A DNA stretch of 64,000 bases from Aliihoeflea aestuarii. Its GTDB lineage: Bacteria > Pseudomonadota > Alphaproteobacteria > Rhizobiales > Rhizobiaceae. The position numbers and the translations under genes were made by a program. Every line of letters starts with the position of its first letter. Position 1 is the stretch's first letter. Location of the stretch: the NCBI RefSeq assembly GCF_024105665.1, contig NZ_JAAAMK010000002.1, positions 186,001 to 250,000 on the forward strand, given 5' to 3'. This document shows positions 4,278 to 36,146 of the stretch, piece by piece. Under the pieces are notes generated by a model. That model was not told where the DNA came from. It did not search any database and worked only from the letters and a program-made list of their open reading frames with translations.

Positions 4278-4606
4278 GATAAATCCATTCCCTTCCTGCG
4301 GCCGAATACATCCGGCCGTCTGGGTTCATGGCGAAAAGAATTGGGATAGAACGTCTTGGGTCGCTACAGGTCCAAAATCTTTCCGCCAACTTCACGCTGA
4401 TTTCGTCAGCATGATTGAGCGTGATGAATTTGGCATCCATGTTTCAAAATGCCACTCAATTGATCTGAGAACGTGAGATAAAAATTCAGGATTGCTGCCT
4501 TAATGCGCACAATTTTGCCGCACGGCAGCACCTTGCATGCTGAACGCGGAAATGCAGGAATTTAGGTAAAGAGTGAGATGGCCATCAGTCCCGGCCAGTG
4601 CCGTCA
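4278..4606. other. Intergenic spacer between DUF4168 gene and tRNA-Leu
   Basis: This AT-richer spacer of about 330 bases should hold the DUF4168 promoter and the 3' end of the tRNA-Leu transcript. I see a palindromic CGGCCG pair flanking 8 bases at about 4301-4320 and a TGCTGCC/GGCAGCA inverted repeat near 4494-4531. Neither is followed by a T run, so neither is a convincing terminator. I find no convincing gene. Confidence 0.5.
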
Positions 4607-4691
4607 TGGTGCGGTCGAGAAGACTCGAACTTCCACGGGTTGCCCCACAGCGACCTCAACGCTGCGCGTCTACCAATTCCGCCACGACCGC
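4607..4691 (-). tRNA. tRNA-Leu (anticodon GAG)
   Basis: The minus strand from 4691 folds as a class II tRNA. The acceptor GCGGTCG pairs with CGACCGC, the D-arm contains GGTAGACGCG, and the anticodon loop is TTGAGGT (anticodon GAG, reading CUC/CUU leucine codons). A long variable arm and a T-arm with GTTCGAGTC follow, then discriminator A and an encoded CCA (4609-4607). The long variable arm and anticodon both indicate leucine. It lies alone, divergent from lipB. Confidence 0.95.
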
Positions 4692-4855
4692 ACGCCATGA
4701 CAAAGCCGGTTTTGGCCGGCCCGGCGCAATTAGCAAATCACTCTGGAGCGCACAAGGCCGCGCGTCAGCTAAACGACATTATTTTGCCGATCCGGCGTGG
4801 ACGCAGCGTAAGACCGGTGGACGCTGGCCACACGATCTCATACATCCAGACCATC

Positions 4856-5566
4856 ATGACGACGCGCGACACCTTGCCCACCCAGTTTCTGCCGATCCCC
4901 GGCTCCGATCCGGTCGAGTGGCGGGTCGAAGACGGACTGGTCGACTACCCCGATGCACTTGCCTTCATGGAAGAGCGCGCGACGGCGATACGCGCCGGAA
5001 CGGCCGGTGAACTCATCTGGCTGGTAGAGCATCCGCCTCTTTATACTGCGGGGACGAGCGCCGATCCGACCGATCTTCTGGCCGCGGACCGGTTCCCGGT
5101 CTTCCAGGCAGGGCGCGGCGGCGAATATACCTATCACGGACCGGGTCAGCGCGTGGCCTATGTCATGCTCGATCTGAAGAGACGCCGCGAGGACGTACGC
5201 GTTTTCGTCGCGGCGCTGGAGGAGTGGATCATACGCGCGCTCGACCGCTTCAACGTCAAGGGTGAGCGGCGCGACGATCGCGTCGGCGTCTGGGTCGTCA
5301 GGCCCGATCGCCCGCCCCTGCCCGACGGCGCGCCGGTCGAAGACAAGATCGCGGCCATCGGCATTCGCCTGCGCCGCTGGGTGTCGTTTCACGGCATAGC
5401 GGTTAATGTCGATCCCGATCTGTCCCATTTCGGGGGCATCGTGCCTTGCGGGGTTCGAGGACACGGCATCACCAGCCTCGTCGATCTGGGCCTACCGGTT
5501 ACGATGGCCGATTTCGATCTCGCCCTCGAAGCGGCGTTCGGAGAAGTCTTCGGGGAAGTGACCTGA
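4856..5566 (+). CDS. lipB: Octanoyltransferase LipB
   Basis: LipB transfers octanoyl from acyl carrier protein to lipoyl domains, the first step of lipoate synthesis. One target, GcvH, is also encoded in this window. The 236-residue protein has the signature [12 protein letters not shown] (residues 87-98), the lysine of EDKIAAIG (Lys164) and the acyl-accepting cysteine of GGIVPCGV (Cys198). I chose ATG 4856 because it gives the usual alphaproteobacterial N-terminus. An upstream extension would run through the tRNA-Leu locus. The ribosome site is weak. The gene ends 20 bases before the convergent SOS-controlled peptide. Confidence 0.95.
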
Positions 5567-5586
5567 TCCGGGCATTCGGCAAATTG

Positions 5587-5673
5587 TCAGACGGCGACCA
5601 GCCACAGCGCCAGCGTCATGATGAAAGCGCCGATCGAGACCAACGAAACGAGATCATGGATGAGAGCGGACAT
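5587..5673 (-). CDS. SOS-controlled 28-residue membrane peptide, SidA-like candidate
   Basis: A 28-residue frame on the minus strand starts at ATG 5673 and ends at TGA 5587. A strong AGGAGA ribosome site precedes it. The peptide begins MSALIHDLVSLVSIGAFIMT and ends LALWLVAV, so nearly the whole length is one membrane segment with a short polar N-terminus. Two GTTC-N7-GTTC motifs, the alphaproteobacterial LexA operator, lie directly upstream, and the nearer one covers the ribosome site. Known biology: Caulobacter SidA is a 29-residue inner-membrane peptide induced by the SOS response that blocks division through FtsW/FtsN. Similarity here is in size, topology and regulation only. I do not claim sequence homology. 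The gene is too short for most annotation pipelines. Confidence 0.65.
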   Translation of the reverse strand: MSALIHDLVSLVSIGAFIMTLALWLVAV

Positions 5674-5678
5674 GATGT

Positions 5679-5693
5679 GTTCTCCTATTGTTC
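5679..5693 (-). promoter_or_regulatory. LexA (SOS) box, proximal, upstream of the 28-residue peptide
   Basis: On the plus strand the site reads GTTCTCCTATTGTTC, an exact GTTC-N7-GTTC. On the coding strand it reads GAAC-N7-GAAC. It ends 5 bases from the ATG at 5673 and includes the AGGAGA ribosome site, so LexA bound here would sit over the start of the message. Confidence 0.75.
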
Positions 5694-5703
5694 TCTGCAA
5701 TGT

Positions 5704-5718
5704 GTTCTTATTTTGTTC
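5704..5718 (-). promoter_or_regulatory. LexA (SOS) box, distal, upstream of the 28-residue peptide
   Basis: The plus strand reads GTTCTTATTTTGTTC, a second exact GTTC-N7-GTTC match, 25 bases from the first. It overlaps an AT-rich stretch next to TTGCAA (5722-5727), which could serve as a -35 element for the minus-strand gene. Two perfect operators in 40 bases are unlikely by chance in this GC-rich DNA. Confidence 0.75.
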
Positions 5719-5855
5719 TTTTTGCAAGCACATATTGGAGCATGCCGTAGACGTCCCCCTGAACGACTCATGAATGCGTTGTAATCCAAGGGTTCAGACA
5801 GCCGCCCGTATCCTGGTCTCCATAAACGCGATCAGGCGTTCCGGGGATTTTCGAC

Positions 5856-6197
5856 ATGAAGCATATTGGTGTTCTGGGGATGATCGCGGCGATGCTGCTC
5901 ACCGCGCTGCCGGCAACCGCACAGGATCGCGGCTATTATGGGCTTGGCGGCGGACACCGCCCCGGCAGCGAGTTTTTCGCGCCCGGTCGCGGTTACGATC
6001 GGGATTGGACCACCGGTCGCCGCAATCACGGCGGTTGCTCGCCCGGCGACGCGTTGCACAAGGCGGAGCGGATGGGCATCCGGCGCGCGCAAATCGCGAA
6101 CGTAAACAGACGAACGATCGATATCGTCGGCCGGTCACGCGGTGAACGCATCCATGTGACGTTCGCCCGCGCGCCGCGCTGCCCGCTTGTGGGTTAG
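5856..6197 (+). CDS. Small secreted protein, function unknown
   Basis: A 113-residue protein with a clear signal peptide (MKHIGVLGMIAAMLLTALPA, then TAQ as a likely cleavage site). A Gly/Arg/Tyr-rich linker follows. The C-terminal half begins at CSPGDALHKAERMGIRRA, continues with short beta-like stretches, and holds a second cysteine near the end, suggesting one disulphide. Similar small periplasmic proteins are common in Hyphomicrobiales, but I know of no assigned role. ATG 5856 follows a GGGGA ribosome site. Its TAG stop shares the tetranucleotide TTAG with the stop of the convergent MucR-like gene. Confidence 0.7.
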   Translation: MKHIGVLGMIAAMLLTALPATAQDRGYYGLGGGHRPGSEFFAPGRGYDRDWTTGRRNHGGCSPGDALHKAERMGIRRAQIANVNRRTIDIVGRSRGERIHVTFARAPRCPLVG

Positions 6198-6625
6198 TCG
6201 TCGGACGAGCCGGCGTCGGGACGCCCAAGTCCCATGGATTTGGCGATCTTGGAGCGCTCGACGGCATAATTGGGCGCGACCATGGGATAGTCGTCCGGTA
6301 GCCCCCATTTGCGGCGATACTGCTCGGGCGTCAGGCCGTAGCGCGCCATCAGGTGCCGCGACAGCGTCCTGAATTTGCGTCCGTCTTCCAGCGAGATAAT
6401 GTAATCCGGTGTCACGGACTTTTTTACCGGAACGGCTGGTTCCTGCGCGGGTTCGGTCGAGACAGCCCCCAAGCGTGAACTGATGGATTGATGAACCGAA
6501 CCAATCAATCCCGGTACTTCGGACGCGGGCACAGGATTATGACTGACATACGCACAGACGATTTGCGTCGTCAGTTCCAGGAGATGCTCCTCGTCGGGGC
6601 GCCCGCCTACACTATGTTCGTTCAT
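6194..6625 (-). CDS. MucR/Ros-family transcriptional regulator, zinc ligands altered
   Basis: A 143-residue member of the Ros/MucR family, DNA-binding regulators of surface polysaccharide, motility and symbiosis or virulence genes. The C-terminal half keeps the family core: VTPDYIISLEDGRKF, then LSRHLMARYGLTPEQYRRKW and DYPMVAPNYA. In Ros the zinc is held by C-x2-C plus two histidines. Here the cysteine positions are Ser78 and Asp81, His91 is kept, and the second His position is Tyr96. A zinc-free fold, as known for some Mesorhizobium family members, is therefore likely. ATG 6625 is chosen because GGAG lies 8 bases upstream. The frame is open further upstream but without a ribosome site. Confidence 0.85.
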   Translation of the reverse strand: MNEHSVGGRPDEEHLLELTTQIVCAYVSHNPVPASEVPGLIGSVHQSISSRLGAVSTEPAQEPAVPVKKSVTPDYIISLEDGRKFRTLSRHLMARYGLTPEQYRRKWGLPDDYPMVAPNYAVERSKIAKSMGLGRPDAGSSDD

Positions 6626-6802
6626 TACGCATACTCCGCCGCTCAATACAGATAGCGTCTCGGACCGGGCACTCAAGACCGACCGTCGAATCGCTATATG
6701 ACTGAGTCAGTTCTAGATCGCGATCGCGGCCGCGTCAGGTCACCAGATATATCCGCTTGTCAGGTGGTAAACCTCAAGCCAATAACCAAGCGTGATTTTG
6801 AA

Positions 6803-7561
6803 TCAAATCTTTCCGAATACAGCCGCAATCGCCAGGAAATCGGCCGCTTTCAGGCTTGCGCCTCCAACGAGTGCGCCATTCACGTCATCCACAGCCATCA
6901 GTTCGGCTGCGTTCGAGGATTTGACGGATCCACCGTAAAGCAGGGGGACGGTCATGGCGGCGTCGCCGAGCTTTCGCGTCAGTTCGGCCCTGATATGCGC
7001 ATGGGCGACGCCGACATCGGCGGCGGTGGGCGTCAGGCCGGTGCCGATGGCCCAGACGGGTTCATAGGCGACGAGCGTGTTCGCGGCAGTCGCCTCCACG
7101 GGAACCGAGCCTGCGATCTGTGCCGACAGAACGTCGAGCGTTTCACCTGCTTCGCGCTCGGAGCGTGTTTCTCCGATGCAGATGATAGCCTTTAGACCTG
7201 CCGCCCAGGCGGCGGTCGCCTTCCTGGCCACGGTTTCGCTGGTCTCGTTGTGGTCGGCACGCCGTTCCGAATGCCCGACGATGACGCAGGTCGCACCGGC
7301 ATCGACCAGCATATCGGCCGAAATGTCGCCGGTATGCGCACCGGCCGCGTCGGCATGGCAATCCTGCCCGCCGATCGCGACACCGGAATCCGTCACGAGA
7401 GGCTGCGCTCGGCTCAAAAGTGTGGCCGGCAGACAGACGACGAGGTCCACGTCTGGAAAGCGTGCATGCCCCTCGACGATTTCACTCAGCTCGGAAAGGG
7501 ACGAGGCGACGCCGTTCATCTTCCAGTTGCCGGCAAGAACGGGTCGGATTTGTGCGCTCAT
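6803..7561 (-). CDS. tpiA: Triosephosphate isomerase
   Basis: TpiA interconverts dihydroxyacetone phosphate and glyceraldehyde 3-phosphate in glycolysis and gluconeogenesis. The 252-residue sequence carries all the catalytic residues: Lys14 in GNWKMNG, His97 in VGHSERR and Glu167 in [11 protein letters not shown]. The phosphate-binding loop LYGGSVK is near the C-terminus. The gene is divergent from ppiD across a 137-base spacer, which must contain both promoters. The ribosome site is weak (GAGATGACAG). Nothing is unusual in the protein. Confidence 0.97.
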
Positions 7562-36131: not shown

Positions 36132-36146
36132 GTTCCGGTTCCGTTC
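36132..36146 (+). promoter_or_regulatory. LexA (SOS) box at dinB
   Basis: GTTCCGGTTCCGTTC is an exact GTTC-N7-GTTC match. It lies in the 66-base gap upstream of dinB and ends 7 bases before the chosen ATG, in the place of the ribosome site. Confidence 0.65.

Follow-up and report, generated by a model that had tools for sequence, protein, structure and literature searches.

Does a frame of only 28 codons in the DNA of Aliihoeflea aestuarii encode a real peptide, and could that peptide be a relative of SidA, the SOS-induced division inhibitor of Caulobacter? The question arose from a sequence-only reading of a stretch of 64,000 nucleotides (hereafter the window; positions 186,001 to 250,000 of contig NZ_JAAAMK010000002.1), which proposed a SidA-like membrane peptide made only after DNA damage. 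Here, we follow the frame and its upstream region through the family, the order and the class, and weigh what the peptide might do.

The peptide gene and its distribution in the family

The elements on which that reading was built, namely the 28-codon frame, the AGGAGA ribosome site, the single hydrophobic helix and two exact LexA-type repeats 5' of the frame, are all confirmed in the letters (Table 1). The frame encodes MSALIHDLVSLVSIGAFIMTLALWLVAV followed by a stop, and the hydropathy of this 28-residue peptide peaks at 2.38 across residues 8-26 (19-residue hydropathy window). A length of about 30 residues with one membrane helix is a feature of the SidA superfamily, and the window peptide has it, the membrane location being predicted from hydropathy. 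A G-rich ribosome site lies at the equivalent place in most of the relatives displayed when upstream regions were compared. A longer in-frame start at 5733 was rejected, since conservation starts only at the 5673 ATG and since, in one relative (L010), the reading frame is closed by a stop four codons 5' of the ATG. The ratio of amino-acid to synonymous change is 0.09 within the window's own genus, 0.09-0.16 in three genera and 0.25 in the genus Caulobacter. We conclude from these comparisons of sequence that the 28-codon frame is a real, conserved gene. A Pfam search with the peptides gave nothing useful, and a generic promoter and terminator scan of the locus returned neither.

Table 1. Features of the peptide locus (positions within the window)
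Feature	Position	Strand	Basis
Gene of SidA-related peptide, 28 codons	5587..5673, stop included (codons 5590-5673)	minus	translation, conservation
Ribosome-binding site AGGAGA	5681..5686	minus	sequence reading
Putative LexA-type operator GAAC-N7-GAAC, in -35/-10 spacer, conserved place	5704..5718	minus	exact pattern, relatives' alignment
Second exact LexA-type repeat GAAC-N7-GAAC, overlapping ribosome site	5679..5693	minus	exact pattern; place not widely conserved
-35-like hexamer TTGCAA, 17 bp from -10	5722..5727	minus	placed by consensus of 87 relatives
-10-like hexamer CACATT	5699..5704	minus	placed by consensus of 87 relatives (CA[AT]AAT)
tRNA gene before lipB	4610-4691	minus	Rfam

A lack of conservation of frame and boxes in close relatives had been named as the result that would speak against the proposal; both turned out to be conserved. 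With the window peptide as a single query, 20 of 61 genomes, among them the one it comes from, contained a relative (E ≤ 1). Profile A1 was then built from 18 peptides, L023, L028, L029 and L030 being excluded from the 22 matches (L029 and L030 are unboxed). With this profile, matches were obtained in 98 of the 109 genera of the GTDB family (327 of 394 genomes) at E ≤ 0.1, a threshold that lets in some chance matches. A broader profile, A3 (see below), recovered boxed copies in three of the 11 genera that A1 had missed (g20, g28 and g89). Five of the eight others (g6, g7, g69, g100 and g117) have genomes of 1.1-2.0 Mb; g103 gave no convincing match with A3, and g68 and g113 were left out of the A3 re-search.

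LexA itself was sought in 26 family genomes, four of which had no match; three of the four (G010, G103 and G138) are also without a convincing peptide, whereas a boxed peptide is present in the fourth, G092, whose assembly is split into about 470 contigs. Among the 22 LexA-positive genomes, seven are without a convincing peptide (G009, G072, G106, G109, G118, G120 and G151), so that presence of LexA and of the peptide do not follow a simple rule.

The neighbours of the gene are less constant than the gene. In the window, lipB (Pfam LplA-B_cat) lies convergent on the downstream side, while the upstream side is occupied by a 113-residue frame to which no Pfam family matches and by a MucR-type regulator (Pfam ROS_MUCR). 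The suggestion that the peptide be sought between lipB and the next gene held in part: lipB is convergent within about 1.5 kb at 33 of 139 fetched loci (30 distinct places, once three double fetches are removed), and is absent from that place in the four relatives that belong to the same genus as the window, which retain the MucR-like gene and the 113-residue frame on the other side. Where the neighbours differ, peptide and box remain together.

LexA-type boxes and promoter layout

Is the repeat upstream of the gene an operator? Both of the repeats that the sequence-only reading had called LexA operators are exact (GTTC-N7-GTTC on the plus strand), and they differ in standing: the one centred in the promoter sits at -45 relative to the ATG, at the conserved place, while the one at -20 is at an unusual place, since only three exact boxes among 122 family loci lie at -19 to -21 and the majority start near -48 or -37. 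Counting boxes in the window says little, for the four GTTC-N7-GTTC sites compare with 2.59 expected, which is no enrichment, and it is therefore conservation across relatives that carries the operator argument. The two other exact sites in the window lie at 4998-5012 (minus strand, within lipB) and 36132-36146 (plus strand), a number that fits chance. Over the whole genome, the box occurs 167 times vs 63 for a reversed-pattern control.

An exact GAAC-N7-GAAC lies within 120 nt upstream at 108 of 122 family loci, against a background of 160 in 50,952 random 120-nt windows (0.31%) drawn from the family and other-family order sets. Controls at the same 122 loci gave two boxes in the opposite orientation and none of the reversed pattern. 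These loci are interrelated, with several per genus; the set omits four double fetches (L051, L056, L096 and L097) and a locus at a contig start (L073), and scores six low-scoring matches as misses. At the same distance, the exact box was found at 17 of 20 loci from other families of the order and at 24 of 30 Caulobacteraceae loci. An opposite-orientation box was additionally present at three of the 20 other-family loci; at L111, L115 and L125 such a box lies close to the forward one.

The 14 unboxed family loci comprise four with one-mismatch boxes (L024, L031, L105 and L273), two with degenerate sites (L066 and L092), two second copies (L029 and L030) and the six low-scoring matches (L278, L283, L286, L287, L289 and L290). 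At L066 and L092, both in genus g73, the peptide is well conserved and SOS control has perhaps been lost. The second copies, L029 in genome G020 and L030 in genome G012, are close relatives of the peptide and are perhaps paralogues under other control.

A more detailed picture comes from aligning 87 promoters on the box. Possession of an exact box at -60 to -42 was the criterion for choosing them, and its frequency of 100% in this alignment is therefore by construction. The sequence TTGAC begins 9 bases 5' of the box (TTGA in 75 of 87), the box occupies the 17-bp spacer, and a -10 element of the form CA[AT]AAT follows; a third half-site often extends the 11-bp period. Read in this way, the promoter geometry is that of a repressor seated on its promoter. 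A single LexA match (PF01726, E 6.5e-17) occurs in the window genome, and an exact box lies 5' of this genome's own lexA, which makes the repeat a plausible operator in this genome. A putative LexA-type operator at the promoter, also a feature of the SidA superfamily, is thus present for the window gene.

Relationship to SidA and spread through the class

The link to SidA was made through a boxed 29-residue peptide, L144, from a genome of the class, which led to a family with matches in 67 of 80 genomes (E ≤ 1); its relatives belong to Caulobacter, Phenylobacterium and Brevundimonas. Two typical Caulobacteraceae members of this family are SidA by the NCBIfam model NF033228 (E 2e-20 and 1.9e-16). 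For the comparison, four profiles were used: A2, a narrow Rhizobiaceae-type profile (74 peptides); A3, restricted to the order and without Caulobacteraceae (31); A4, SidA (16); and A5, a broader profile of 33 peptides, two of them Caulobacteraceae rows. Both A3 and A5 omit weak order matches without boxes (L104 and L124).

Profiles A3 and A4 align without a gap at E 2.9e-6, a score that exceeds all of 400 column permutations (0/400 as good). When A3 was used as an HMM, SidA ranked first at 80 of 80 Caulobacteraceae loci containing 12,293 frames, and the lowest SidA score (6.3 bits) stayed above that of the best other frame (5.3 bits), with no overlap; these loci had been fetched as SidA holders, so the ranking is a measure of specificity and not of discovery. 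The narrower A2 aligned more weakly with the SidA profile (E 2.9e-4, 1/400 permutations as good) and placed SidA first at 56 of 80 loci.

NF033228 itself finds no match at E ≤ 1 in the window peptide and 17 relatives; run over the whole window genome, its best matches lie elsewhere (14.2 and 13.5 bits). Three of the 33 A5 peptides match it at E ≤ 10, namely the two Caulobacteraceae rows and one order peptide (E 0.067). The curated cut-off of this equivalog model is 35 bits, and the window peptide falls below it. Since the model misses it, we name the peptide SidA-related and not SidA proper.

Where does the resemblance lie? SidA and the window-type peptides are alike in length (28 or 29 residues), in their one hydrophobic helix, in having LexA-type boxes upstream and in ungapped similarity over positions 1-21. 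The positions common to the order and SidA peptides are [DE]7, [AS]10 and F17, the last invariant in A2, A3 and A4. Residues 18-28 differ between the groups, with FVWMMC in SidA and W24 in most order members, and the N-terminus of the window peptide is acidic (net charge -1, vs +1 in one Caulobacter SidA). In C. vibrioides T5M6, sidA precedes dnaE, the gene of the DNA polymerase III alpha subunit, whereas the window gene is not so placed. On this evidence, shared ancestry of the window peptide with Caulobacter SidA is supported, within the same superfamily and outside the NCBI equivalog. The term "SidA-like", offered at first for size and regulation, has therefore gained in content: the profile alignment and its permutations, the naming of the Caulobacteraceae members by NF033228 and the ranking of SidA loci argue for common descent.

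Beyond the family, A2 matches 53 of 297 order genomes at E ≤ 0.05, and A5 matches 206 of 297 at E ≤ 1, a level at which many matches are surely due to chance. Among 70 order loci inspected from the A5 search, an exact box lies within 130 nt at 56, covering 20 of the 21 other families sampled; several of the 30 best loci are places from which A5 was built, and the count therefore mildly favours boxed copies, while the remaining 40 were picked on genus and E-value, ahead of any inspection for boxes. Class-wide searches matched 27 of 385 genomes (E ≤ 0.1) and 108 of 289 (E ≤ 1), with exact boxes 5' of peptides in three families outside both the order and the Caulobacteraceae (f55, f61 and f70); most other inspected matches are unboxed. 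Seven boxed peptides from these three families (L126, L371, L372, L373, L375, L376 and L382) mix SidA-like and rhizobial-like features, as in KDFLALSSVVGVLWAVTIWS. These peptides may represent links with a more ancient family of the Alphaproteobacteria.

An origin on plasmids or phages was considered and set aside: tblastn of plasmids and phages with one family peptide gave no match (E ≤ 0.1), and two scans of viral contigs confirmed no relative, queries as short as these reaching close relatives only. In PHROGs, six of the 74 A2 peptides match phrog_1692 weakly (best E 5e-4).

Proposed action and competing explanations

What would such a peptide do? In Caulobacter, SidA, an inner-membrane protein of 29 residues, halts division and interacts with both FtsW and FtsN (PMC4211646). 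It leaves Z-ring formation unhindered and has been modelled on FtsW TM7, with a confidence that is not high (PMC13396833). Deletion of lexA causes filamentation through constitutive sidA expression, and deletion of sidA relieves it (PMC12700426).

By homology to SidA, the window peptide is expected to be an SOS-induced brake on FtsW/FtsI/FtsN, and we consider it probable that it is a SidA-related inhibitor of this septal complex. Points that count against this reading are the miss by NF033228, the weaker match of A2, the sequence change beyond F17 together with the acidic N-terminus, and the seven LexA-positive genomes that lack a convincing peptide. In an undamaged cell, LexA would sit on the operator within the promoter spacer and block transcription. 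DNA damage would lead RecA to prompt LexA self-cleavage, and the peptide would then be translated from a short transcript whose leader is about 20 nt long. The peptide, predicted from its hydropathy to enter the inner membrane, would bind the septal wall synthase complex FtsW/FtsI/FtsN in the manner of SidA and hold it inactive; inhibition would end once repair is finished and LexA is back.

In other phyla, the SOS response induces YneA, SosA and ChiZ, small membrane proteins that inhibit division at a late stage. The window peptide would resemble them by analogy in induction and action; their sequences are other than its own, and two of them, YneA and ChiZ, have a LysM domain. YneA binds FtsW (PMC13396833).

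The operator and the homology leave other explanations to be weighed. That the frame is there by chance, beside real or chance LexA sites, might be argued from a box pattern no commoner inside the window than expected, but searches based on the peptide recover the box at 108 of 122 family loci, the two occur together despite differing neighbours, and the amino-acid constraint is strong (ratios 0.09-0.16), so we reject this explanation as having virtually no probability. A membrane toxin is another matter. TisB and DinQ perturb the membrane itself, and a peptide of this type would depolarise or otherwise perturb the inner membrane and bring about dormancy instead of a specific division block. 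The size class, the one hydrophobic helix and the SOS sites are the same, and comparable peptides do exist in E. coli, where TisB and DinQ are short, SOS-induced and accompanied by antisense RNA partners (PMC3567139, PMC8145889). The window gene is likewise predicted to encode a short membrane peptide under putative SOS control, but its leader is short and its ribosome site strong, charged residues are missing beyond position 8 in 73 of 74 members, and the order peptides are homologous to SidA. Nor was an antisense RNA family found: an Rfam scan of 4500-7000 (E ≤ 1), which would miss an undescribed RNA, matched only the tRNA. We regard a toxin as unlikely.

A descendant of SidA with a new target is given an equally low probability. 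Such a peptide would have taken over from SidA both its regulation by the SOS response and its N-terminal half, and would bind some other membrane protein, such as a sensor kinase, a protease or an elongation enzyme for polar growth. A changed target is conceivable, given that the later part of the helix, with W24 in most order members in place of FVWMMC, differs from that of SidA, and these bacteria grow unipolarly (PMC9022086); the shared part, however, is in ungapped register with F17 invariant, and the operator has been retained together with the peptide.

Searches of the open-licence PMC literature brought up no paper on a SidA relative outside Caulobacter or on an SOS division inhibitor of rhizobia. 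In a study of the Sinorhizobium meliloti small proteome, the shortest annotated ORF has 30 residues and the SOS response is not mentioned in the main text (PMC10117765); such a minimum fits a gene overlooked by annotation. We lean, with some reserve, to a broader reading: in the Hyphomicrobiales and relatives, the standard checkpoint on division in the SOS response would be a peptide of the SidA type, which descends from an ancestor shared with Caulobacter and which most members have retained, genome-reduced lineages excepted. Its length of fewer than 30 codons and the changed part of the helix beyond F17 would then explain why annotation and the NCBI SidA model miss it. If this is true, a single short helix with a fixed F17 would be a minimal, fast-evolving FtsW brake.

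The window peptide may thus be an unrecognised division checkpoint of rhizobia and their relatives, a candidate recovered from the majority of the genera sampled in the family and of the families sampled in the order. The operator and the residues for mutation (D7, F17 and W24) are at hand, making the question directly testable in symbionts. SidA would change from a peculiarity of Caulobacter into a family, whose natural variation could be used to map how a single helix silences FtsW.
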